This document shows, piece after piece, positions 7,582 through 46,648 of a stretch of 57,340 nucleotides of DNA. Made by a program: the position numbers and the translations under genes. The notes below the pieces were generated by a model. That model worked only from the letters and a program-made list of their open reading frames with translations. It had not been told where the DNA came from and made no database searches. The DNA comes from a virus. Position 1 is the first letter of the stretch; the number at the start of each line of letters is the position of its first letter. The stretch covers positions 1-57,340 of IMG/VR virus record IMGVR_UViG_3300030102_001647; one strand, 5' to 3'.

Positions 7582-10101
7582 ATGATTATAATAGAAAATA
7601 AAAATACTTTTGAAGATTTGTTAGGTTTAGAAATAGAAACAGAAGATAAGTTTCTAAATAAAAAACTTAACTCTCATGTTTGTTATAGTGGCGGCGGTGG
7701 AGGCGGCAGTAAACAACAGGATATTGCACCTACATTACAACCATATGTTAGAGATGTTCTTAGTCGTGCTAAAGGACAAGTAGATGCTCCTTATCAAGCA
7801 TATCCGGGCGAGCGTATTGTAGGATTTACACCACAAGAATTAGCTGCACAACAAGGTATTCAACAAATGGCTGGGCAATATGGTCTTGCTGCAACAGCCC
7901 CCGGTCTTACATCTTCTGCTGCTTATTATTCGCCAGCTTATAGTTATCTTGGGCAAACAGGTCAAGCTCTTGGTCAACAAGCTGGTGCATTAGCCGAAGC
8001 TCCTCGTTTATTTGGTACACAAGAAGCTTTGTATGGTGAAGCTTTACGTCCTATTTCTGGTATACAAGAGCAACTTACAGGTGCTGGTCGTTTATTAGGT
8101 GAGTCTGGTTTGCGTCAACGTGCTGCTGCTCGTGATATTGGCAGAGATGAGATAGGTAGATTTGCTTTAACAGGTGAAGATATACAAGAGTATATGGACC
8201 CATATCAACAGGCTGTAGTTGATATTGAAAAAGCTCAAGCAAGACAAGATGCTTTACAAACTGCACAAGCTATCGCAGCTAAGTCTGCTGGCATGGGTGC
8301 ATTTGGTGGTTCTCGTCAAGCTATTCTTGAGTCACAAGCTGCTTCTGATTTAGCTAAAAGATTATCAGATATACAAACTCGTGGGTCACAAGCTGCTTAT
8401 CAACAAGCATTACAAACTGCAGCACAACAACAACAGATAGGTTTAACTCAAGCTGAAAGACAAAGAGCAAGAGAGCAACAACTTGGTGCTGGTCTTGCAG
8501 GACTTGCTAGTGCTAGACAACAACTTGGTGTTGGTGGTTATGGTAGCATGGCTGAACAACTACGTCAAGCTGGTGCTGGTTTTGGTAGTTTAGGTGGGCA
8601 GTATGGTTCACTTGCAGGACAATTTGGTCAACTAGGTGGTGGACTAGGTGCGTTGTCTGGACAATATGGTTCACTTGGTCAACAGGCTCTTGGTCAAGGT
8701 TATCGTGAGCTTGGATATTTATCTGGTGTTGGTGAGGCACAACGTGGTCTTGGACAAGAACGTGCCGATGTAGCTTATGGTGATTTTAGAGAAGCTAGAG
8801 AATACCCAATGCAGCAGCTAGAAAGATATGCTGGTATGGCTTTTGGTGTTCCATCTGGTTATATACAAGGAATGCAAGCACAACCTTCAAGATTCCAACA
8901 AGCCGTGGGTGGTGTTACTACTGCAGCTGGTCTTGGTCGTGGTCTTGGTTTCTTTAATCAAGGTGGTAATATAGGTAATAGAGGTTTAAATGGTGCTATC
9001 CAAGCTTTATCAGGCGGTCAAATACAAGCACTATTAGAAGAAAAGAAAAAATTAGAGGCTGAAATAAAAACATTAAACGCCAGTACAAAAAGAAATAGAG
9101 TCCCTGCGGGTTCGATACAGCTAAAAAATAAATTAGATAAAATTAATGCTACACTACAAGCAGAAAGTCAAAACTTAGCTAAACCTCCGTCTTCATTTGG
9201 AGGTCGCCCCTCACCCGGTTCACAAAAAGTAAAACCTGCTCCGTTTCAGTTACCTCCTTCTGGATTAGTTCAAACTGGTGGTAGTGGTCAACAACCGCCT
9301 TCCGGTGGTCAACAACCGCCTTCCGGTGGTCAACAGCCTCCACAATTATCGCCATATGAAACTGTTATTCAAGATTTAGGTGAACGTTTCGGGGGATTAG
9401 GAACAACCGAAGCACAGAAACAAGGTCTTGCAGCATATGCAGAACTTGCTAAACTTATTGGTGAGGATAAATTCGATAAAGAAGCTAGAGAAGCAGAAAT
9501 ACAAGAACAGATAAAAGCTGCTCGTTCACAAGGTGGTTTTGATGTAGCTGCATTAGGTGTTGAGATTATGTCAAAACCTCTTGCAGAAATTGATAATGAT
9601 TTAATTAGAAACTTAGGCACATCTAAAAAAGAAATAGCTGCGCTTAAAGCTGAAATTAATAAACTACCTGCCGAAGAAAGAGCGCAAGGTATTAAAAATG
9701 CTTTAACAAAAATTACTGCACTTGGTAGTATTCAAGATTTAATACCAGATGTTTTAGAAGCTCCTGATGCAAGTCCTACAGTTGTGTTAGGTGCGCTTGA
9801 ATTAGCAACACAAGGCATGGGCAAAAGTTTCTCACAAAATCAATTAGAAAAAGAAGGAATAAAAGTAGGTAAACTTGCTACAGATGTATTAGAGGATATT
9901 GACGCACTTCAAATTAAAGATGATAATACTCGTAATCAAGCTTACGTTGAAGCATTAGCTCAAAAACTTAGAGATGAGATGAGAAAAAAAGGTTTATTGC
10001 CTAATGTAGTTACTGGTGGCGGCAGCGGTACTGGTGGTGGCGGTGGTGCTGGTAGCAATCAAGGCAATCAAGGTCAGTTTATCCCACCTCCTGTTTCGTA
10101 A
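7582..10101 (+). CDS. Internal virion protein, Gln/Ala-rich
   Basis: 839 residues. After a short unique start comes a Gly run (SGGGGGGSKQQDIAPTLQPY). Residues ~50-440 are Gln/Ala/Gly-rich helical repeats such as AGQYGLAATAPG, GSLGGQYGSLAGQFGQLGGG and SGQYGSLGQQALGQG. Two tandem copies of QQPPSGG lie near residue 575. The C-terminal part is a charged helical domain and the protein ends in a Gly-rich tail. Composition, length and position between the 400- and 1221-residue genes indicate a core or ejection protein injected with the DNA. No lytic transglycosylase motif was found. Confidence 0.65.
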   Translation: MIIIENKNTFEDLLGLEIETEDKFLNKKLNSHVCYSGGGGGGSKQQDIAPTLQPYVRDVLSRAKGQVDAPYQAYPGERIVGFTPQELAAQQGIQQMAGQYGLAATAPGLTSSAAYYSPAYSYLGQTGQALGQQAGALAEAPRLFGTQEALYGEALRPISGIQEQLTGAGRLLGESGLRQRAAARDIGRDEIGRFALTGEDIQEYMDPYQQAVVDIEKAQARQDALQTAQAIAAKSAGMGAFGGSRQAILESQAASDLAKRLSDIQTRGSQAAYQQALQTAAQQQQIGLTQAERQRAREQQLGAGLAGLASARQQLGVGGYGSMAEQLRQAGAGFGSLGGQYGSLAGQFGQLGGGLGALSGQYGSLGQQALGQGYRELGYLSGVGEAQRGLGQERADVAYGDFREAREYPMQQLERYAGMAFGVPSGYIQGMQAQPSRFQQAVGGVTTAAGLGRGLGFFNQGGNIGNRGLNGAIQALSGGQIQALLEEKKKLEAEIKTLNASTKRNRVPAGSIQLKNKLDKINATLQAESQNLAKPPSSFGGRPSPGSQKVKPAPFQLPPSGLVQTGGSGQQPPSGGQQPPSGGQQPPQLSPYETVIQDLGERFGGLGTTEAQKQGLAAYAELAKLIGEDKFDKEAREAEIQEQIKAARSQGGFDVAALGVEIMSKPLAEIDNDLIRNLGTSKKEIAALKAEINKLPAEERAQGIKNALTKITALGSIQDLIPDVLEAPDASPTVVLGALELATQGMGKSFSQNQLEKEGIKVGKLATDVLEDIDALQIKDDNTRNQAYVEALAQKLRDEMRKKGLLPNVVTGGGSGTGGGGGAGSNQGNQGQFIPPPVS

Positions 10102-10119
10102 AATGTAAAAGGTTTATAA

Positions 10120-13100
10120 ATGGTAGTAAGTTATAGGTCACAGACATTTCAAGATGCCTTTAAAGAAGCTGAAGATTTAATAGAGCTTGGTAATATTGCA
10201 TCACAAGATGATATGGAAGATTTTGTAAAGTCTAAAGGAATGGACTTGCAAGATTATGCTGACGCTTATTATAAATTTGAAGATGCTAAAAAAGCAGGTG
10301 AAACAGATTTTAGAGCTATAGGAGATTTTACACCTGTTGCTGCTCCTATACGTACAGTAGGTAGATTTGTAGGTGAGGTTGGTGAAGGTGTAGGTACTTT
10401 AGCAGATTTAGTTACTGGAGGATATGCGTCAGATGTAGGAGAAACTGTAGCTGAGTTATTGCCTGAAAGACTTCAAGAGTTTGGTAATGAAATATTTGAC
10501 CCTTATCATGGTGATAGCTATTTAGGAGCAGCAGAAGACATTACAGGTACTATAGGTTCTTATATTGCAGGTGGTGGTTTACTTCTTAAGGGAGCAGGTT
10601 TTGCAGCAAAAACTGTTCGAGGTTTGACTAGTGCTAAAAAAGTTACAAAGCCGGGAAGTAAATCTTTAATAACACAAAAATATAAAAACCTAAATAGAGA
10701 GGCTAGACGAAAAGCTGTTTCTAAAGCTAGGGCAAAACAAAAAGTAACTGAAGCAGGAAAAAAAGGTGTTGCTCTGGCAGGAGCTACTACTCTTATAGAC
10801 AGACCTGAAGACGGTATTGTTAATATGCTAGTAGATATGTTCCCAGAATCTACAGAGTATCTTGAGAGATTGTATGTTAATCCTGATGACAGCGAAGCCG
10901 AAGCTCTTCTTAAATCTTTTATAGGTAATCTTGGGATTGCTGTTCCTTTTGGAATGTTTACTTTAGCAGCAGCTTATAAAAAACCTATAGCCGCTGCTGC
11001 ATCTACTGGATTTAAACCTATAAAAGAGGCTGTAAAAGAATTACCTTACTTAAATAAACTACCTAGTTTAGGTGCTTACTTTAGTTCACGTTTAGGAACT
11101 GATGATACTATGCTTTCTCTTTTAGTTAAAGTTTCAAAAGGGACTGAAGCAGGTATTATACGTGCTGAAGGTTTAGCAGCTGATTTAGGCAGAGTTGCTC
11201 GTGAAGAGTATGGTGGTAAAAGTATTCCTAACAAAATAATGGATAAAGCTCTTAAAGGAGACACTGCTGCCTTAAACTCTTTAAAGCCTAAAACAAAAGA
11301 AATTATTTCTGAAATGCGTGACAACATTGATTCTTTAAGTAAAGAGGCTCGTTCAAGTGGAATTAAAGGTAAGTTTGGTGCTACTATTGATAAAGGTTTA
11401 GGAACTTATGTAACACGTAGTTATGATTTTTTTGATGATGCTTCTTTTAAAAAAGATATATTAGGAAAGTTTAAATCTTTTGTTAAGGATGGTAAAGATG
11501 AACAAGGAGTGTTTGGTGCAGCCTTAAATGATATTGTTAAAATGACAGGTCAGTCTTCTGATGAAGCTCTTATAACTCTTAGAAAAATGTTACGTGCTGA
11601 GTCTGATGATGCTATGGCTGAAAGTTTAGAAAACATTACTAAGTTTGGAAACTTTACTACTGTTAAAAGTGGACGAGAACGTAGCGAACTTCTTACAGAG
11701 TCTGGTAATATTAGGGCATTGTTAGGTGAGGTTAAAGACCCTTTTAAAAATTATGTTAAAACTGTAGGTAATTTATCACGCATTACTGCAGAACAAAAGT
11801 TCTTAGCAGGTACAGCTAAACATCTAAAGAGTAAGTTTGGTAATGAAACTGTTGAGGGTTTGTCTGACCTTACTCAAGTAGGAAGTAATAGATTATCTAA
11901 AATATTTGGGGCTAAGACGGGGTCAGTAACTAATCCTCTTGAAAATGTTTATGCTACTAAGGCTTATAAAAATGCTATTGAAGAGGGATTAAATGTAATT
12001 CAGTCTGATTCTTTTTTAGGTCAAGCATTTGCTAAATCAAAAGGTGTATCTCAAGCAATGAAAACAATTGCTAATCCTTCTACACATGGTAGAAATATAA
12101 TGGGTAACGCTATTCTTATGGCTGCTAATGGTATGATTCCTTTTATAGGAAAAGGAGGTATGAAAAGTTTAAGCACTACTTTTAATATGTTAGCAAATAA
12201 AACTAATAAAGAACTAGGTGAAAGGCTTGCTGAGTATACTGAGTTAGGTATTATTGGTAGTGGTGTTCAACAAAATGTTATTAAGAATAACTTAAAGAAA
12301 TATGCCAAAGACCCTGATGCAGCTTTGTTGTCTAGTATTTCAAAAGATGAGAATAAAGTATTAGGAGCAGCTAAAGTCATACCTAAAAAAGTTACCGAAC
12401 TTTATCAAGCTGAAGATGATATTTTTAAAATTGCTCACTATGAAAAAACTTTAGCTGCATTAAAGAAAAGTCCTAAATATAAAGACCAGCCTATTGAAGT
12501 GATTAAAGATGCTGCTGCTCAACGAACACGGGACATGATGCCTAATTATAATTTAGTTCCTAAAGCATTTAAAAATTTACGTGCTATGCCTGTGGGTGAC
12601 TTTATGGCTTTCCCTGCAGAAATGACTCGTGTCACTAAAAATTTAGTTAAGTATAGTGTGCAAGACCTTGCCAGTGGTGATGCTACTCTTATGAAAGAAG
12701 GGGCAAAGCGTTTAGCTGGCTTTACCACTATGGGTTATGCTCCATTATACTTCTCAGAAAAATCAAGAATTGCTAATGGTATAACTGATGACCAAGCAGA
12801 AGCTTTAGAAAATATAGGTAAAGATTGGGAGTTTAATCAAGATAAAATTTATTTATCTCCTATTACTAAAGATAAAAATAATCATCTAGGTGTTAAGTAT
12901 TTTAATTTAGGTCCGATTGACCCTTTTAGTTATTTAAAAACAGGCGCACAAACAGCACATGCTTTAATTGCTAATGGTATTATGGATGATGATGCTATTG
13001 CATATGAAACAGATAAGTTAGCACTAAGTACACTTGACCAAGTGTTTGGTCCTTTCTTAGCACCTTCTATGGTTACTGAAGCTTTAGTTACAGCGATTGC

Positions 13101-13785
13101 CCCCGGTCAGTATGGGGATAGCTTAGTTGAAGGAGCGTTAAACGATGGACTAGCAGACAGACTAGCACCTCTTGCTAAAACATTTACACCAGGATTTGTA
13201 GATTATATTATAAGAAGAAATGATTTTTATGAAAGTCAGGCTAAACAAGAGGGCATAGGTAGAGAAGCACTTAAAAAATTTGGAGCTACTTACAAAGAAT
13301 ATGAAATAGACATGCCAGCAGCAATGGGTCTTAAAAGAGATTACTTAGATATTACTGCTGGTCTAGCTTTTAATGTAGCACCTATTGTTAAAGAAACTAA
13401 AAATTCTATAGGTAAATTTAGAAGCACTTTAATGAAAGACCCTAATCTAAATGACCCTGATGAACTTACGATGATGTACTACGATTCACAGAAAAGAAAG
13501 TTTGAAACAATGCAACGTCTAAATAGTATTATTCAAGATTATAGAACAATTTTTGGGGAAAGAGATTTTTACGAAGAATTTGATAATGGTTTAACTACTG
13601 GTAGGAGGATGCCTAAAGACGAGGGAACTTATGCAATAATAAATCAAGCTAATGAAAATAAATTTAGCCCTGACCCTATACCTTTTGGGGATTACTTAGA
13701 TGTTACTAGACCAGCTTTAGATTTTAGAACATTAGAAAAATTAAGAAGAGACATGATAGGTCTTTCTTTAATGCCTACAGAATAA
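10120..13785 (+). CDS. Large internal virion (DNA-ejection) protein
   Basis: 1221 residues, the largest protein here. It is helical and charged, starting MVVSYRSQTFQDAFKEAEDL, with a few hydrophobic stretches (IGSYIAGGGLLLKGAGFAA, LGIAVPFGMFTLAAAY, MGNAILMAANGMIPFIG) that could cross a membrane after ejection, as proposed for T7 gp16. No RNA polymerase motif and no clear transglycosylase ES motif. It lies directly before the lysozyme, where T7-like and marine podoviruses place their largest internal protein. The role is inferred from size, composition and order. Confidence 0.65.
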   Translation: MVVSYRSQTFQDAFKEAEDLIELGNIASQDDMEDFVKSKGMDLQDYADAYYKFEDAKKAGETDFRAIGDFTPVAAPIRTVGRFVGEVGEGVGTLADLVTGGYASDVGETVAELLPERLQEFGNEIFDPYHGDSYLGAAEDITGTIGSYIAGGGLLLKGAGFAAKTVRGLTSAKKVTKPGSKSLITQKYKNLNREARRKAVSKARAKQKVTEAGKKGVALAGATTLIDRPEDGIVNMLVDMFPESTEYLERLYVNPDDSEAEALLKSFIGNLGIAVPFGMFTLAAAYKKPIAAAASTGFKPIKEAVKELPYLNKLPSLGAYFSSRLGTDDTMLSLLVKVSKGTEAGIIRAEGLAADLGRVAREEYGGKSIPNKIMDKALKGDTAALNSLKPKTKEIISEMRDNIDSLSKEARSSGIKGKFGATIDKGLGTYVTRSYDFFDDASFKKDILGKFKSFVKDGKDEQGVFGAALNDIVKMTGQSSDEALITLRKMLRAESDDAMAESLENITKFGNFTTVKSGRERSELLTESGNIRALLGEVKDPFKNYVKTVGNLSRITAEQKFLAGTAKHLKSKFGNETVEGLSDLTQVGSNRLSKIFGAKTGSVTNPLENVYATKAYKNAIEEGLNVIQSDSFLGQAFAKSKGVSQAMKTIANPSTHGRNIMGNAILMAANGMIPFIGKGGMKSLSTTFNMLANKTNKELGERLAEYTELGIIGSGVQQNVIKNNLKKYAKDPDAALLSSISKDENKVLGAAKVIPKKVTELYQAEDDIFKIAHYEKTLAALKKSPKYKDQPIEVIKDAAAQRTRDMMPNYNLVPKAFKNLRAMPVGDFMAFPAEMTRVTKNLVKYSVQDLASGDATLMKEGAKRLAGFTTMGYAPLYFSEKSRIANGITDDQAEALENIGKDWEFNQDKIYLSPITKDKNNHLGVKYFNLGPIDPFSYLKTGAQTAHALIANGIMDDDAIAYETDKLALSTLDQVFGPFLAPSMVTEALVTAIAPGQYGDSLVEGALNDGLADRLAPLAKTFTPGFVDYIIRRNDFYESQAKQEGIGREALKKFGATYKEYEIDMPAAMGLKRDYLDITAGLAFNVAPIVKETKNSIGKFRSTLMKDPNLNDPDELTMMYYDSQKRKFETMQRLNSIIQDYRTIFGERDFYEEFDNGLTTGRRMPKDEGTYAIINQANENKFSPDPIPFGDYLDVTRPALDFRTLEKLRRDMIGLSLMPTE

Positions 13786-14600: not shown

Positions 14601-15293
14601 ATGGGAAGAGCAATGATGGGTGCATCAACAAATGTTATGACACCGGAACAAGCAAAGCAAATGAGCATGACAAAGAATGTTAAGCCTCCTGCACTTCAAA
14701 ATGCAATTGACCAAGCAATTTCAACAGGACAGAATGTTCAATATACTCCAGATTTTAGTTCTACGGGTGGGTTAAGTACATCTTTTTCTAAAGCACCTGA
14801 ACCATATGTGCCTGAGTCTGCTAAAGCAGCAGGTGCATTGTATGAGGCAGGTGTAGCACCGTCAATTATTAGAACAATGACTAATGAGTCTTCTTCTTTT
14901 GACCCTGTTGCATACAGGAATCAGTTTAAATCTGACAGCAGTGGGTTGGCTAGTGTTGCTCAACCTACTCCACCACCTCAAGAAGCCGCTACATTTAATC
15001 CTTCACGAGGTAAGGGTGAGTTTTCTCCTAGACAACAGATGCCTAGCTTTTATCAACAACCTATGGGTATGATGGCACAACCTTTTAATCCTATGGGGTA
15101 TGGTCCTATGGGTATGTTTATGAATCCTTATGGTGGATTAGGAGGCATATCTTACAACTTTATGAATAGACAAATGCCTAACTTTAGTATGGGTACTCCA
15201 TTTACTGCAGGTCAATACCAAGCACCAGAACCAATTAAAAATCCAATGGTAAACGCAGCTAGTAGTTTTTTCGGTGGGTTTGGTTTTTACTAA
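14601..15293 (+). CDS. Hypothetical Met/Pro/Gly-rich protein
   Basis: 230 residues, last gene of the rightward late operon in this part. Starts [20 protein letters not shown]. The C-terminal half is a low-complexity run rich in Met, Pro, Gly, Gln and Phe ([18 protein letters not shown], then [11 protein letters not shown]). No domain recognised; the composition suggests a disordered virion or scaffold-like component. Its stop overlaps the end of the convergent gmd gene by 4 bases. Confidence 0.55.
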
Positions 15294-16309
15294 ACAGCAT
15301 CAATCATTTCTTGAATCATAGTCTCAAAGGTGTATTTGGGTTTCCATCCAAGCACCTTTTTTGCTTTTGAGGCATCGCCTAATAGTTGGTCAACTTCTGA
15401 TGGTCTGTAAAACTCAGGGTTAATATCTACAACAAGGTTATCGTAGTGGTCATAACCTTTCTCATCAACTCCTTCACCTTCCCAACGTATATTTATAAAG
15501 TCTATCTTTTTAAAACATAGTTCTACTAACTCACGAACAGAGTGCATCTCACCTGTAGCTAATACATAGTCATCGCCATGTTCATGCTGCACCATTTTAT
15601 ACATACCTTCTACATAATCTTTTGCATGTCCCCAATCACGTTGAGCATCTAAGTTACCTAAACTAATCTTATCTTTCTTTCCTGATATAACATCTGCTAC
15701 GCCCTTAACAATCTTTTGTGTAACAAACTCATCACCACGCCAAGGTGACTCGTGGTTAAATAATATACCATTAGAACCATGTAGACCATAGGCTTCACGA
15801 TAATTCCTAACTGTCCAGTAAGAGAACAACTTAGCAACGCCATAAGGTGAGCGAGGATAGAATGGTGTTGTCTCTGTCTGTGGAACTTCTTGTACTTTGC
15901 CGTATAGTTCAGAAGTAGATGCCTGATAGAATCGTGTTGTCTCTAACATGTCTAGTGTACGCATACATTCTAACAGCCTGAGAGTACCAAGACCATCAAC
16001 ATCGGCTGTATATTCTGGTATATCAAACGATACACGGACATGTGACTGTGCGCCTAAGTTATATACCTCGTCAAATTGATAGGTTGCGAACAGCTTCATA
16101 AGACATCCTGTGTCTGTCAAATCACCATAATGTAGGGAAAGGTTAGGATGATTTAGAATATGCTCTATACGCCTCATATTTGCCCCAGCAGAGCGTCTTC
16201 TCAATGCGTGTACATCATATCCCATATCAAGCAAAAGCTCTGCTAGGTAGCCTCCATCTTGTCCTGTGATGCCTGTTACAAATGCAGTCTTATTTGTCTT
16301 TATCTTCAT
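15290..16309 (-). CDS. gmd: GDP-mannose 4,6-dehydratase
   Basis: 339 residues from the ATG at 16309. It converts GDP-mannose to GDP-4-keto-6-deoxymannose, precursor of GDP-fucose, rhamnose or perosamine sugars. The NAD(P)-binding loop is [13 protein letters not shown] (residues 12-24). The catalytic set T132/E134 (ASTSELYG), Y156 and K160 (SPYGVAK) falls at the same numbering as in the E. coli enzyme. A longer reading frame to 16375 exists, but its extra 22 residues coincide with the micro-gene at 16290-16409. No reductase partner follows, so the product must be completed by host enzymes or used as it is. Last gene of the sugar cassette with two glycosyltransferase-type proteins. Confidence 0.93.
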
Positions 16310-16409
16310 TAATCCATGCCTGTATTTGTTTTCTGAATGAACGTACATCATATAACAGCCAGCATAGAGGTACAAGACACAAAGCTAATAGTATAATTTC
16401 AATCTTCAT
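16290..16409 (-). CDS. Micro-gene, 39-residue membrane peptide
   Basis: ATG at 16409, inside the last codons of the small terminase gene; stop inside the start of gmd (20-base overlap). The N-terminal [19 protein letters not shown] is a membrane anchor or signal-like segment followed by a charged tail ending NEDKDK. It exactly bridges two real genes in a tightly coupled operon. Function unknown. Confidence 0.5.
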
Positions 16410-16845
16410 CTTCTATTTCCTCGTCTTGAAAATCCTCTGGAAAGGTTTCCATAAGTAGTTCGTAAATCTTTTCTTTTCCGATAACCTGCATTGCTCCTCG
16501 TATCTCTCCTTCAAGAGAATCAATGTCATCTGAGCTTTCATCTTCGGCGTTATTACCCCTAACTCTTGACAATAGTTCAAGTGCTTTAAGCGCAGTCTGC
16601 CCGTGTCCCTGAGACTTGGCTGCCTCATATTGTTTCTCCAGTTCCTCAATGACATCAACGTCCGTAGTAAACTCACCTTCTAACTCCTTAATTCTTTCCT
16701 TGACATCCTCACGTTGTAGTAAGTTGTATCCTTGATTGTAAGCAGAGCGTTCACTGTATCCTGCTGCCTCTGCTGATTTAGTAGCATTACGACTAACAAC
16801 ATAATGCTGACAAAACTTTTCTTGCTTCTCCTTTAACTCTGGCAT
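16399..16845 (-). CDS. terS: Terminase small subunit
   Basis: 148 residues. The N-terminal part (LKEKQEKFCQHYVVSRNATK, then SAEAAGYSERSAYNQG and LLQREDVKERI) is the typical helix-turn-helix DNA-binding region of the terminase_2 family, which recognises phage DNA and positions the large subunit. An oligomerising helix follows (VIEELEKQYEAAKSQGHGQ), then a very acidic tail ([12 protein letters not shown]). Unusually it lies on the opposite strand and about 21 kb from the large subunit at 37432, inside the sugar cassette. The start overlaps the upstream gene by 13 bases. Confidence 0.88.
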   Translation of the reverse strand: MPELKEKQEKFCQHYVVSRNATKSAEAAGYSERSAYNQGYNLLQREDVKERIKELEGEFTTDVDVIEELEKQYEAAKSQGHGQTALKALELLSRVRGNNAEDESSDDIDSLEGEIRGAMQVIGKEKIYELLMETFPEDFQDEEIEDED

Positions 16846-19124
16846 TCTTCCTCCGCAAAAGTTCTATATTTATTTTTGTAGAAAGATTGTTCCCATAGTT
16901 GAGCAACTAAACTGTCTTTACCATAATATCTAATGTTTAATTGTAGTGCGTGTTCTTCCCACATTTTTTCTAAGTCTTGAGCAAGTGCTAATAGTTCACC
17001 AGTTGTAAAGAATTTTTTACCACCTGTTTCTACATGTATATATTTAGGATTACCTGCCTCGTCTTTCAATTCCTTTTGTTCCTCTGTTACATTAGGTATA
17101 CTACAATCAAAACCAAATAGGTGAATATTATGATACCCTAAAGTATCCAGCATTCCTATTGTTCTTGTTGCTGCTGCCGTGCCGCCAGATATTAAAACTG
17201 CTCCGTCTTTTATACCAGACTTTTTATCAATAACTACTTTATCTGTAATTGATTCATCACGAATACCATTTGTAAAAGCATGGAAGCCACGTATCTTATC
17301 TGTCTTACTCATAATGTGACGAGTAACAGAAGGGTCTGTCATTGATGCAATATAGAATACAGTTTCTTCTGGTATTGTTTCAAACAGTTCGGTTCTTTTT
17401 ACACCGTGTGTACTTATACCTTCAATAGGTCTAGGGTCAAGGACAAGACAAGCATCAGGAATAATATCCTTCTCTATAAGTTTAGGAAGTGCGTGTTTAA
17501 CACACCATATTTTTGCATTATACTTTTTCTTTACACGTTTTAAATTTTTAAAATCTATTACACCTCCAGACACAACAGCCACATGTTCGTCTGTAGGTTT
17601 ATATTTTTTTACTAAATCATAGTTACTAATAAGCTCTAGGTTTTCTTTTATATTAGCACGTATGTAATCGCTAGGAACGCAGTCTTTAGGCTTAACAACT
17701 ATTGGAGTTCTAATTAGTTGTTGTGGTAATTCCTTTACTTCTTTTTTAAGCAGCACCGCTAGATGAACATGAGAACCAAAAGCTGTCATGTCGCTAGAAG
17801 GTAAAACATATTTGTTTCTTTCTGTAGCTTCTTCAAATGTTTTAATAATACCTGAGTGTTCCTCTGGAACTTCTTTATCATCATCGTGAAAGCTGTAGTA
17901 ATCATCAAACACAACTATAGGTACTTGTCTAAGATACTTGTAGTCACTAGACACTGTGTCATAAGAATGACCGCCATCAATATATGCAAGGTCTACATCA
18001 TTAAACTGATGTGAGTCCATAGTAATTTTGGTATCGCCTTTGTATAGAGTAAATGTAAATCCCTTGCCGTTCTCTTTCATCTTCTGAGAGAATTCTCTTA
18101 GCCTATTACTAACTGCATTGTATGCGTTATGCTGTTTAATGTTTAACTCAATTCTATCTGTTTCTTCTGTAGCATCTTCAAACAAATCAAAGCCACGATA
18201 ATGTACACTATCTACATTCTCGAAAGCAGCTAGAGCCATTTCAATAGCCCTGCCACCATTCCAAGTTCCTGTCTCAACAATAGAGAAAGAGGACAGTCCT
18301 TCACTGTAACTACGAACTATATCTGCTAGTTGTTTATATCTTTTTGGTCCTTGAATATCTTTAGATACTGTGTCTAACTTAGGCTTATCGTATTTTAAAT
18401 TTCCTTTGTTATGTATAAAGTAATCTTTTAGAGCAGAGTTTTCAAAGACTGCTAGTCCACGAACACCTTCTGATAGGTTGTGTGTTTTAGTTCCATGTGC
18501 TTTGTAAATATTTAACAAGCGTTCAAATACAAAAGAGTCTGTCCATTCACGATAAGCCAACACCTCGTTGGTATCATATGCACCTCTAATATCTACAAGC
18601 ATAGACACTGCGTTGTGCATACCCATATTCCATCCGACAAAACCTGTTTCACTGTAGTCAATATCAATACGTCCAAGGTGAACCACATCACTATCATCTG
18701 GTAATATTTTAGCGGCATCTTCTGCTGTAAATTTTGTAGTTGTAATTGTATCTGCGTCTAACCAAACCAACCAGCTTGAGTATTCTTGGTCTATAAGTTC
18801 GTAGGCTAAGTCTGTATAAGCATATACTTTATGGCAGAATCTTATAGCATCCATTCGATAGTTATAAGGTGCTTCTGCGTAACGCCCATTCTTATCTTTG
18901 TTACGAGTTATAAAATCTTGTCTAGCTTTTAGTTTGTCTAAATCTCTGTATTCAATAAAGCTTGCCTCTGGTACGTCTGGTTTCTCAGAACCAAAGCCAT
19001 CATAATACACAACCAATCTAAAGTCGTCTGGATTCCAGTTATCTACAACTGACTCTAGCATTTGCTTTGCATACAAATCAAAATGCTCTTTGTTAAAAGC
19101 TGTTACAAAAGTATATTTACTCAT
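16833..19124 (-). CDS. Three-part glycosyltransferase / methyltransferase / MptE-like fusion
   Basis: 763 residues with three recognisable parts. Residues ~1-250 are glycosyltransferase-like with a DxD metal motif (D123-A-D125 in WLVWLDADTITT). Residues ~280-415 look like a class I SAM methyltransferase of the Methyltransf_24 type: VETGTWNGGRAIEMAL at 283, and YIDGGHSYDTVSSDY at 381, the usual acidic loop. Residues ~515-745 resemble DUF115/MptE-like proteins of surface glycosylation loci (VSGGVIDFKNLKRV, PDACLVLDPRP, ISGGTAAATRTIGMLDTLGY). It starts on an ATGA overlap with the downstream glycosyltransferase's stop at 19121. It probably builds or caps a sugar chain on the host surface or on the virion. 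Each domain call is by motif; the fusion as a unit is not one I know. Confidence 0.7.
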   Translation of the reverse strand: MSKYTFVTAFNKEHFDLYAKQMLESVVDNWNPDDFRLVVYYDGFGSEKPDVPEASFIEYRDLDKLKARQDFITRNKDKNGRYAEAPYNYRMDAIRFCHKVYAYTDLAYELIDQEYSSWLVWLDADTITTTKFTAEDAAKILPDDSDVVHLGRIDIDYSETGFVGWNMGMHNAVSMLVDIRGAYDTNEVLAYREWTDSFVFERLLNIYKAHGTKTHNLSEGVRGLAVFENSALKDYFIHNKGNLKYDKPKLDTVSKDIQGPKRYKQLADIVRSYSEGLSSFSIVETGTWNGGRAIEMALAAFENVDSVHYRGFDLFEDATEETDRIELNIKQHNAYNAVSNRLREFSQKMKENGKGFTFTLYKGDTKITMDSHQFNDVDLAYIDGGHSYDTVSSDYKYLRQVPIVVFDDYYSFHDDDKEVPEEHSGIIKTFEEATERNKYVLPSSDMTAFGSHVHLAVLLKKEVKELPQQLIRTPIVVKPKDCVPSDYIRANIKENLELISNYDLVKKYKPTDEHVAVVSGGVIDFKNLKRVKKKYNAKIWCVKHALPKLIEKDIIPDACLVLDPRPIEGISTHGVKRTELFETIPEETVFYIASMTDPSVTRHIMSKTDKIRGFHAFTNGIRDESITDKVVIDKKSGIKDGAVLISGGTAAATRTIGMLDTLGYHNIHLFGFDCSIPNVTEEQKELKDEAGNPKYIHVETGGKKFFTTGELLALAQDLEKMWEEHALQLNIRYYGKDSLVAQLWEQSFYKNKYRTFAEEECQS

Positions 19125-19891
19125 CCAAGTGACTCCATTAATTTTTCTGTATATATTTTATCTTGGAATAGTTTCCATTCAAAGGAATACTCCTCGTCTA
19201 TTTTTCTTTTAGCTTCCCATTTATCAAACCAAGGACCACCTGTGGTGAAGTGTACGTTCTTTGCTTCTATGTTTGCAGGGCTGTGTCCGTCTAGCCAGTT
19301 CCATTCTTCGTGTATATCGCCTATCTCATCGTCTTGTAGCCAAGACAATCTATGTAACCAACCACCAGACTTTAGGTTAACATCGTCAACAGTAAGCTCT
19401 TTTGTTTTTTCATGGTCACAATTAAATAACATAAAGCTAGACCAGTTCTTTCTATGGTATTGTGTCTGGACAACTCCATCCATCTTCTTACCTACATCAG
19501 GAGTATACTTGTGTTTAACACAAGAGACTGCATACTCTTTCCTGCTACCATACTGGTCAAAGATTTGTTCGATGTCAGCACGTACAAACATATCAGAGTC
19601 CATAAATAATGCAAGACCTGTGTATTGATTTAAAGCAGGTACTAAAAATCTTGTGAATGTAAAGTCAGTGCTGAATGGCTTCCTGTCAAAGTAGTCTATC
19701 TTCTGTCGAGGATTACTCTCATCAACAAAAATAGTTCTACGGAATAGTCCTGCACGACGCAGCGCAGGTTCTATCAGAGGTACGATAGGAAACTTATCGC
19801 AATACTTTCTTATTGAACACATCAAAACCTCGTAAGCCTGATGGTCACGAGGGTCATAACCTATATAGATTGTAGGTTTTTTATTAAACAT
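19121..19891 (-). CDS. Glycosyltransferase, GT8-like
   Basis: 256 residues. Begins TIYIGYDPRDHQAYEVLM. A nucleotide-sugar metal motif DxD occurs at D98-S-D100 in ALFMDSDMF, preceded by FTRFLVPALNQY, and a late HFTTGGPWFDKWE fits the acceptor end of GT-A enzymes. Predicted cytoplasmic, no membrane segment. The start lies in an 8-base ATGTTTAA overlap with the small gene upstream; the stop overlaps the start of the 763-residue fusion by 4. Sugar and acceptor unknown; gmd in the same operon makes a GDP-deoxyhexose a likely donor. Confidence 0.75.
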   Translation of the reverse strand: MFNKKPTIYIGYDPRDHQAYEVLMCSIRKYCDKFPIVPLIEPALRRAGLFRRTIFVDESNPRQKIDYFDRKPFSTDFTFTRFLVPALNQYTGLALFMDSDMFVRADIEQIFDQYGSRKEYAVSCVKHKYTPDVGKKMDGVVQTQYHRKNWSSFMLFNCDHEKTKELTVDDVNLKSGGWLHRLSWLQDDEIGDIHEEWNWLDGHSPANIEAKNVHFTTGGPWFDKWEAKRKIDEEYSFEWKLFQDKIYTEKLMESLG

Positions 19892-20054
19892 CGTCAGGTA
19901 AATCTATAGATTCCAAATCTTCTGGTGTCGTTGTTTGTGCTACGCTTTGTATTTTTTTAATAACATCAATAGATACTTTAGCTGGCAACTCTCCCAGACC
20001 TGCTAAAATAACGTTAAGTTCTTCTGTAGTAAATGTTAATGTCCATGTTTTCAT
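19884..20054 (-). CDS. Small hypothetical protein, 56 residues
   Basis: Starts MKTWTLTFTTEELNVILAGL and ends EDLESIDLPDDV. A strong AGGAG sits 8 bases before the ATG, immediately after the U-run of the leader hairpin. The stop overlaps the glycosyltransferase start as ATGTTTAA. A TFTTEELNVILAGLGELP layout occurs in small proteins of other marine phages. First gene of the sugar-cassette operon; function unknown. Confidence 0.65.
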   Translation of the reverse strand: MKTWTLTFTTEELNVILAGLGELPAKVSIDVIKKIQSVAQTTTPEDLESIDLPDDV

Positions 20055-20065
20055 TGTGTTCTCCT

Positions 20066-20127
20066 AAAAAAAAATAAAGCGGTAGCTGACCTAGAGAGAG
20101 AGGAAAGGAGGCACAGCCAGCTACCAC
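20066..20127 (-). terminator. Leader hairpin with U-run: attenuator or small RNA end
   Basis: Read leftward, GGTAGCTG (20125-20118) pairs with CAGCTACC (20088-20081), extendable to 10 pairs with one G-U. The 29-base pyrimidine-rich loop contains CCTCCTTT. The stem is followed by GCTTTA and nine T. This is the form of a factor-independent terminator, but the promoter's expected start point lies at its first base, so transcripts would begin inside the hairpin. The Shine-Dalgarno of the next gene begins right after the U-run. The long loop makes terminator efficiency uncertain. Confidence 0.6.
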
Positions 20128-20131
20128 AATA

Positions 20132-20160
20132 ATTATACTAAATTTAATTTAGTATGTCAA
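20132..20160 (-). promoter_or_regulatory. Consensus sigma-70 promoter with inverted repeat
   Basis: TTGACA (160-155), exactly 17 bases, TATAAT (137-132): a perfect match to both boxes at ideal spacing. The TTGACA overlaps the TGA stop of the upstream gene. A 9-base perfect inverted repeat (ATACTAAAT / ATTTAGTAT, 20135-20155) fills the spacer and the edges of both boxes, a plausible operator. It drives the small gene, glycosyltransferases, terS and gmd. Confidence 0.8.
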
Positions 20161-39225: not shown

Positions 39226-39408
39226 ATGGTTATGAAAAAGAAAAGCAAGGGCTATCGTGCTGGCGGCAAGATGAAAAGCAAAGGCTATCGTGCTGGTGGT
39301 AAAATGAAAACTAAAATGATGCGTAAGGGAGGCAAAGCTTCAGGAATGTCAGTAGCAAAACTACGGGCTGAAGCTAAGAAAAAGGGGTACAAGCTGGTTA
39401 AGTCTTAA
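39226..39408 (+). CDS. Small basic protein with tandem repeat
   Basis: 60 residues. KSKGYRAGGKM occurs twice in tandem (residues 5-15 and 17-27), encoded by near-identical DNA at 39238-39308. A KGGKASG motif and a SAP-like end, MSVAKLRAEAKKKGYKLVKS, follow. Probably binds nucleic acid. The stop overlaps the next start (TAATG). Confidence 0.6.
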   Translation: MVMKKKSKGYRAGGKMKSKGYRAGGKMKTKMMRKGGKASGMSVAKLRAEAKKKGYKLVKS

Positions 39409-40079
39409 TGGCTTACCTGCAAAGCAACATCCCGCATTTTAAATGTTGGGTGCGTCGTGAGTATACCCATAACCACGAAGCTTATCATGGAGAGTTTTTA
39501 CATGCTATGGCAATCGCTGTTACAACGATGCCAAATAGATGTTTAAGTTTTCAAGTTATTTTTACTGGTATAGCACCAGAAGGAGAAAAGGACGATACAG
39601 TACACGGTGGAGCTATGTGGGCTAGGATGCCTATTACGGCTCTGGTAGGAGATATTCCTTTAGACGAGTGGCCTGAACCTATGGATGTTCACAATGCTCA
39701 ACCTTGGGACTGTTCTTCAAACCATCATGCGGTGTATGTATTAGATAGAGCAACACCTTGTCCGTGGTTAGCTAAGATAGATGGTAACATGTATCCTGCT
39801 AAATATTTATTTACTGTTGACTATACAGAAAGTGAAATAGCAGATGACCCTGCACAACATAAACAAAGTCATGTTATGTGTTTATTAGATGCAGGAGAAT
39901 GGACAGGTAATATTGTAGCATTGCCTAATAATCGAGTAAGGGTAACACACCCTGCTTGGTTTGAAACAGGAGAAGGCGCACCAGACTTTAAACCTTCTGC
40001 TCACATACACTATAGTAAAAGTGATTTAGATTACACACTAGATACAAATAGAATATTCGATAATTTATATAATGAATAA
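39408..40079 (+). CDS. Conserved marine-phage protein, unknown
   Basis: 223 residues. Motifs FKCWVRREYTHNHEAYHGEF, GAMWARMPITALVGDIPLDE and DCSSNHHAVYVLDRATPCPW are well defined, with many His, Trp and Cys that could bind metal. I recall similar proteins beside portal genes in uncultured marine phages, but no function. It ends in an 8-base ATGAATAA overlap with the next gene. Confidence 0.6.
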   Translation: MAYLQSNIPHFKCWVRREYTHNHEAYHGEFLHAMAIAVTTMPNRCLSFQVIFTGIAPEGEKDDTVHGGAMWARMPITALVGDIPLDEWPEPMDVHNAQPWDCSSNHHAVYVLDRATPCPWLAKIDGNMYPAKYLFTVDYTESEIADDPAQHKQSHVMCLLDAGEWTGNIVALPNNRVRVTHPAWFETGEGAPDFKPSAHIHYSKSDLDYTLDTNRIFDNLYNE

Positions 40080-45703: not shown

Positions 45704-46648
45704 ATGGCTATAAATAGAGCATCTATTGCTAAAGAGCTTCTCCCCGGTCTTAATGCCGTATTCGGTCTTGAGTATGGGGAAGTCTCTGATGAACACGCTC
45801 CACTGTTTGAAACTGAGAACAGTGACCGTGCTTTCGAGGAAGAGGTTCTTTTCACTGGCTTCGGTACTGCACCTGTAAAAGGTGAAGGTGCTGCTGTTTC
45901 TTACGACGACGCTTCTGAAAGCTTTACATCTCGTTACACACACGAGACTATTGCTCTTGGATTTGCTGTCACAGAAGAAGCTATGGAAGATAATCTTTAT
46001 GACACATTCGCCAAGTTACGTGCCAAAGGTTTGGCTCGTGCAATGGCTAACACAAAACAAGTTAAAGCTGCTGACGTATTTAACAACGGTTTTAACTCAA
46101 GCTTTGCTGGTGGTGATGGACAACCGTTCTTCTCCAACGCACACCCGACTATTGGGGATGGCAACCAAAGTAACTTGCTTACTGCTGCTGACCTGTCGGA
46201 AGCTTCGCTGGAAACTGCTCTTATCAGCATTTCCAAAATCAAAGATGACCGTGGTATCTTAATTGGCGCACAAGCCGAAAGCCTCCACATTCCATCTGAC
46301 TTGGCGTTTGTTGCTGACCAAGTTCTAAACAGCACAATGTCAACAACTATTGGGGTTAACCCAACAACTGCAGCTAATGGTGCAACAAATGTAAACGATA
46401 TTAACTCTATCAGAAACCAAGGACTTATTCCCGGTGGTTTCTTTGTGAACCGTCGCTTTACAGATACAAACGCATTCTTCATCAAAACTGATGTTCCGAA
46501 TGGCGCAAAAATGTTTGTACGTTCACCATTGCAAACCAAAATGGAACCAGATTTCGATACAGGAAACCTTCGCTTTAAAGCTCGTGAGCGTTATAGCTTT
46601 GGCTTCTCTGATTGGAGAGGTTACTTTGGTAATGCTGGTTCTTCCTAA
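45704..46648 (+). CDS. Major capsid protein (HK97-type fold, inferred)
   Basis: 314 residues. FGLEYGEVSDEHAPLFETEN opens it; a conserved middle YTHETIALGFAVTEEAMEDN, with FAKLRAKGLARAMANTKQVK and GDGQPFFSNAHPTIGDG, is typical of marine phage capsid subunits. It ends SFGFSDWRGYFGNAGSS, with no N-terminal delta domain. Directly after scaffold and decoration genes and followed by a strong terminator, as expected for the most abundant product. Codons avoid rare A/T endings. Confidence 0.9.
   Translation: MAINRASIAKELLPGLNAVFGLEYGEVSDEHAPLFETENSDRAFEEEVLFTGFGTAPVKGEGAAVSYDDASESFTSRYTHETIALGFAVTEEAMEDNLYDTFAKLRAKGLARAMANTKQVKAADVFNNGFNSSFAGGDGQPFFSNAHPTIGDGNQSNLLTAADLSEASLETALISISKIKDDRGILIGAQAESLHIPSDLAFVADQVLNSTMSTTIGVNPTTAANGATNVNDINSIRNQGLIPGGFFVNRRFTDTNAFFIKTDVPNGAKMFVRSPLQTKMEPDFDTGNLRFKARERYSFGFSDWRGYFGNAGSS

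Follow-up and report, generated by a model that had tools for sequence, protein, structure and literature searches.

A single predicted protein of 763 residues, in which a GT-A glycosyltransferase, an O-methyltransferase and an MptE-like (DUF115) domain are joined in one chain, is a fixed core gene in a large, mostly uncultured lineage of marine phages. It is encoded on the minus strand, at 16833–19124, of the window, by which we mean the whole stretch of 57,340 nucleotides analysed here (IMG/VR record IMGVR_UViG_3300030102_001647), and its constant partners are a GT8-like glycosyltransferase gene and the gene for the terminase small subunit (TerS). The explanation that we favour, at about an even chance of being right, is that the fusion and the GT8-like protein build a short methylated glycan, the likeliest acceptor of which would be a newly made virion protein.

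The reading frame of the fusion starts with ATG and has zero internal stops, bearing out the coordinates and the length of 763 residues given by an earlier inspection of the letters (the sequence-only reading), which had left the strand unstated. The motifs singled out there were located at residues 284–288 (ETGTW) and 383–388 (DGGHSY), and its claim of three independent folds is supported by Pfam for the methyltransferase and MptE-like parts and by AF2 and Foldseek for residues 1–245. The same domain order, in one frame, was recovered in 211 full-length ORFs (125 of them unique) from fetched independent contigs, which answers the suggestion that it should be sought in other phages, and all 49 sampled full-length members match both PF01973 (at E ≤ 0.01) and PF13578. 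Between members, the distances measured for the three domains rise and fall together (r 0.90–0.94) and have nearly equal means, indicating that the parts of the fusion have descended together. Two frames joined by a sequencing error, the alternative by which the sequence-only reading would have been refuted, are ruled out by these 125 distinct single-frame versions with co-diverging domains, and the domain-distance correlation likewise rules out the swapping of domains between phages. No unfused forms were found within the lineage of the fusion, only truncations at contig ends. None of the enzymes shows a transmembrane segment, the maximum 19-residue hydropathy being 1.10 for the fusion, 0.95 for the GT8-like protein and 0.82 for the neighbouring GDP-mannose 4,6-dehydratase (gmd), and the fusion is best read as a predicted soluble, cytosolic multi-enzyme.

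The first domain (residues 1–245; 18390–19124, minus strand) is, judging from its modelled structure, a GT-A glycosyltransferase in the neighbourhood of families GT6 and GT8, not a proven member of either. Residues 1–245 have no match in Pfam, and a PDB sequence-profile search with this domain gave nothing useful. An AF2 run with 14 close sequences left this part unfolded (pLDDT 63), and adding free-standing homologues solved the fold: the model built from 61 homologues, free-standing copies from T4-like marine phages (L239–L318) among them, reached a mean pLDDT of 91.7 and a pTM of 0.88. It has a Rossmann-like GT-A fold with a DxD motif, as expected from the glycosyltransferase part that had been proposed for residues 1–250, and its D123 and D125 (a DAD motif at 123–125) are invariant in the 61 sequences, as are G151, R152, E159, D196, H238 and K240, with a C-terminal H238xKG. 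Foldseek ranked the retaining GT6 alpha-1,3-galactosyltransferases (E 1.4e-8) and blood-group transferases first, followed by GT8 glycogenin (E 3.7e-7) and xyloside xylosyltransferase, all at a TM of about 0.5 and 9–14% identity; the domain falls outside the CAZy GT8 and GT6 family profiles, the similarity being one of fold only.

The second domain (residues 262–470; 17715–18341, minus strand) is a Methyltransf_24/TylF-like SAM O-methyltransferase. Pfam places Methyltransf_24 (PF13578) at residues 283–409 with E 7e-9 and 36.9 bits against a cut-off of 26.3, in agreement with the assignment previously made from the ETGTW and DGGHSY motifs. The TylF/MycF family (PF05711) scores 17.5 bits in the window protein, below its cut-off of 23; a profile of the domain finds the sugar O-methyltransferase MycF (4x7v) weakly (E 0.009), and Foldseek returns metal-dependent O-methyltransferases, MycF included. 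Conserved motifs are ETGTWNGG (the SAM motif), GFDLF, IDGGHS and FDD, with D383, D407 and D408 invariant in 25 methyltransferase domains. In the alignment with MycF 4x7v, IDG falls on its MDG stretch and DD on its DDY stretch, so that these three residues match what we take to be the metal-site aspartates of that enzyme. The domain thus shares a fold and aligned motifs with TylF and MycF, but it stays below the TylF cut-off and is fused between two transferase domains.

The third domain (residues 480–745; 16890–17687, minus strand) is MptE-like, as the sequence-only reading had it, with PF01973 (DUF115) at residues 490–678 (E 7e-14; 52.4 bits against a cut-off of 34.6), and it resembles Maf-type glycosyltransferases. 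Its nearest fold in the PDB is the Maf flagellin glycosyltransferase 5mu5 (Foldseek E 2.4e-7 over 511 columns), a domain-wise likeness, with a whole-chain TM of 0.23/0.27 and an rmsd of 15.5 on a modest model. A PDB sequence-profile search with the MptE domain gave nothing useful. The NCBIfam PseD model matches 18 of 22 fusion members weakly, and in the window protein NF050051 covers residues 490–610 only, at 20.6 bits against a cut-off of 670. A G-GPS-like motif near the first strand is presumably a feature of PF01973; it reads SAGPSMDF in one related clade (L079) and VSGGVIDF in the window, which lacks the GPS motif, and domain 3 may therefore not be catalytic there.

Maf enzymes use nonulosonic acids. 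Maf is a cytosolic protein O-glycosyltransferase; its centre is a pfam01973 domain that resembles the sialyltransferase Cst-II, and its N-terminal domain bears a weak likeness to methyltransferases (PMC11339370). The fusion follows Maf and PseD, which act in cytosolic protein O-glycosylation, in that PF01973 is preceded by a Rossmann/methyltransferase-like domain, and Maf is its best PDB fold match. It departs from them in the methyltransferase motifs, which look intact, in the extra GT-A domain, and in that no nonulosonic-acid genes were seen among the window proteins scanned, which counts against the explanation that we favour. We infer that the last two thirds of the fusion may amount to a more elaborate Maf-like unit whose methyltransferase is functional.

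Immediately upstream lies the gene for the GT8-like glycosyltransferase (256 aa; 19121–19891, minus strand; phrog_28018), whose frame overlaps that of the fusion by ATGA and which is found in this position in all 104 loci with room for it. The window protein scores 17 bits for GT8 (PF01501), below the cut-off of 24.3, while a homologue 41% identical to it in Pelagibacter phage Mosig EXVC030M passes at 30.9 bits. On the other side, the start of TerS (16399–16845, minus strand; PF03592, 62 bits) overlaps the end of the fusion by 13 nt, and TerS is directly downstream of the fusion in 66 of 66 loci. In the reverse check, every unique retrieved TerS relative with room (125/125) follows a fusion, a figure valid within the lineage but not for phages in general, since the retrieval favours near relatives.

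The gmd gene (15290–16375, minus strand) is clear in its identity, with 497 bits for the TIGR01472 equivalog against a cut-off of 415, and is adjacent in the clade of the window only: above 58% identity to the window it lies next to the cassette in 27 of 27 loci, and below that value in none of 39. Genomes of the L080/L094 type carry it at another place, and six records (42–59 kb) of the L139-type clade lack it, a distribution that rules it out as an obligate partner. The compact sugar cassette of GT8-like gene, fusion and gmd previously described therefore holds for the constant GT8-like gene and for the presence of gmd in the window, although TerS sits between the fusion and gmd and the latter is optional; since gmd is not integral, the proposed methylated deoxysugar would apply at most to some members.

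A glycosyltransferase and GT8 pair also recurs in a distant group, the Mosig-type T4-like marine phages (L239–L318 and L020), in which 46 of 82 loci have a GT8 homologue directly beside the free-standing glycosyltransferase and a further 25 have one nearby. This recurrence suggests that the two enzymes act in a joint pathway. The cassette of Mosig EXVC030M is like the fusion locus in having a 29% identical glycosyltransferase domain beside the 41% identical GT8-like gene, but these are separate genes, accompanied by two FkbM methyltransferases and a sulfotransferase, with no PF01973 domain found alongside.

Ahead of the cassette, on the minus strand, there is a perfect sigma-70 promoter (TTGACA-17-TATAAT; 20132–20160), the sole site in the window to match at 12/12 positions by equal criteria. 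Directly after it comes a 5' leader hairpin (20079–20127, minus strand; MFE -21.2, z -5.75) with a pyrimidine-rich CCUCCUUUCC loop and then a U tract, followed by a Shine-Dalgarno sequence and a 56-aa ORF (19884–20054, minus strand) that lies between the leader and the GT8-like gene and overlaps the start of the latter. Promoter and leader recur in the gmd-bearing clade to which the window belongs (L001, L009, L011, L012, L029, L035, L048, L052 and L063). The stem sequences vary widely yet still pair, and among 8 variants 9 of the 10 stem pairs differ on both sides. No Rfam family matched the hairpin at the gathering threshold, and the weak matches below it were unconvincing. The CCUCCUUUCC-type loop is complementary to a Shine-Dalgarno sequence, and the hairpin may therefore regulate translation or act as a small RNA in its own right; we regard it as a candidate cis-regulatory element or small RNA.

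Some other parts of the window also vary among relatives. A gene facing gmd (14601–15293, plus strand) is highly variable or replaced among otherwise near-identical relatives (from 46% identity to no match), which makes the end of the structural genes a locally variable spot. The 839-aa and 1221-aa proteins before the lysozyme (7582–13785, plus strand), the first of them weakly like a DNA ejection protein, range from 98% to about 31% identity while other genes remain above 90%, which suggests that internal-virion or ejection proteins are exchanged. Between TerL and the portal gene there is a 223-aa gene with no match in Pfam (39408–40079, plus strand); copies 83–85% identical to it lie between the GT8-like gene and the fusion in two loci (L035 5321–5995 and L054 5267–5998), and relatives of about 26% identity occur upstream of the GT8-like gene in others (e.g., L012 8525–9244), so the gene is a dispersed and possibly mobile one.

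Scanning IMG/VR yielded at least 558 confirmed stretches that encode relatives of the fusion. A single scan with short degenerate patterns, which distant relatives could escape, covered 84,980 bacterial and archaeal species genomes and gave no relative that would indicate a bacterial origin. Among 50,697 GenBank phages no cultured phage with the full fusion was found, and two match with the first domain alone, Mosig EXVC030M (29%) and a spring podovirus (24%). The UniProt entry A0A6J7X5Q0 from an uncultured Caudovirales phage (714 aa) is 27% identical over the full length (794 alignment columns), and its public name is only 'Methyltransferase domain containing protein'. Its architecture is probably alike, and thus the three-domain arrangement was probably already present in public data, unrecognised in the searchable literature. 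Searches of that literature gave no description of the exact fusion and nothing on phages carrying a DUF115 or MptE-like domain. The earlier remark that no system with this fusion had been described stands in that sense, but the protein is not a one-off, being found in hundreds of marine phage contigs at least, besides the UniProt entry.

In the explanation that we favour, the GT8-like protein and the fusion would add two or three sugars in sequence, one of them O-methylated, and in gmd-bearing phages one sugar would probably derive from GDP-4-keto-6-deoxymannose. The acceptor would receive its glycan in the cytoplasm, while virions are being assembled or earlier, as in the case of Maf with flagellin and of A064R with the chlorovirus capsid glycan. 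Catalytic activity, reaction order, sugar identity and acceptor are here what we infer. A cytosolic assembly line is the simplest reading because nothing in the cassette looks membrane-bound, and a virion protein is favoured as acceptor because the fusion gene belongs to the invariant core of the lineage, is linked with TerS and has a Maf-like domain at its end. The overlapping frames from the GT8-like gene through the fusion to TerS speak for it too, as does the core status of the fusion, unlike that of accessory surface-modification genes. Against it, the operon is placed among genes for DNA metabolism and packaging rather than among those for capsid or tail, and we know of no glycosylated virion protein in the fusion-bearing lineage. 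The GPS motif missing from domain 3 in the window weighs on the same side. The major capsid protein of the window is encoded at 45704–46648 on the plus strand.

By analogy, the clearest functional parallel would be A064R of PBCV-1, a 638-aa chlorovirus protein with two glycosyltransferase domains and a methyltransferase domain that builds the methylated rhamnose end on the capsid glycan; PBCV-1 also encodes gmd (A118R) (PMC9614988). Both are virus-encoded single chains with two glycosyltransferases and one sugar O-methyltransferase, with gmd in the virus; the order differs, being GT-GT-MT in A064R and GT-MT-DUF115 in the fusion, and A064R comes from a eukaryotic virus, with no homology to the phage protein demonstrated. 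A more ambitious form of our proposal, which we put forward tentatively and rate somewhat under even, would make the fusion an assembly-line enzyme and the core virion-protein glycosylation machine of a large marine podovirus-like lineage, with the GT8-like enzyme as partner, co-expression with TerS, driven in the clade of the window by the cassette's own promoter and structured leader, and a methylated glycoprotein on every particle, that is, the phage counterpart of A064R.

The cassette might instead act on the host surface, the GT8-like enzyme and the fusion placing a methylated sugar on intermediates of the LPS core or O-chain in the cytoplasm and so blocking superinfection by competing phages, a possibility to be taken seriously even if we doubt it. 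LPS synthesis often involves GT8 enzymes, gmd is a frequent supplier of O-antigen sugars, the Mosig cassette resembles a surface-polysaccharide set, and the authors of the pelagimyophage (SAR11 myophage) study favour modification of the O-chain or host LPS for GT8 genes in general (PMC7029224), an interpretation that this role would match. However, all retrieved members with room for it have the fusion, always at the same place and at identities down to ~48%, whereas genes for surface conversion tend to be accessory and to vary; the cassette has no flippase, polymerase or membrane-anchored glycosyltransferase, and the third domain resembles a protein glycosyltransferase. Both functions had been offered by the sequence-only reading, and it is the superinfection block that comes out weaker, given a core, invariant gene with a Maf-like third fold, and decoration of the virion that is favoured.

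It is improbable that the glycosyltransferases and the methyltransferase decorate phage DNA against nucleases. The cassette does adjoin DNA-metabolism genes and TerS, and the methyltransferase part matches PHROG 2675, labelled DNA methyltransferase, but this match is weak (25.9 bits), the domain is TylF/MycF-like without a DNA-methyltransferase match in Pfam, and the glycosyltransferase fold is GT6/GT8-like. Moreover, no gene of the thymidylate-synthase/dUMP-hydroxymethylase family was seen in 12 related records, so that the best-known route would have no hydroxylated base on which to place a sugar. Least of all do we credit a chance fusion of unrelated cargo with an MptE-like part in pterin or folate metabolism, which the Pfam name of PF01973 evokes by its reference to the archaeal 6-hydroxymethylpterin diphosphokinase MptE, because the domains co-diverge, are never apart in the lineage and share a glycosyltransferase partner, the nearest fold of domain 3 is Maf, and no pterin gene was seen among the window proteins scanned.

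In most cases phage glycosylation genes are dispersed and variable, and hence their target is hard to guess. Phage glycosylation cassettes and multi-domain viral enzymes combining glycosyltransferases and methyltransferases were already known; the architecture of the fusion is a further variation on these, widespread and, going by the searchable literature, unstudied. In at least hundreds of marine phage contigs this three-enzyme chain has retained identical partners in an unchanged order, and it allows one gene and one product to address whether tailed phages decorate their virions with purpose-built methylated glycans or remodel the surface of abundant marine bacteria, with the gmd-bearing and gmd-free clades as natural variants for assigning sugar specificity.
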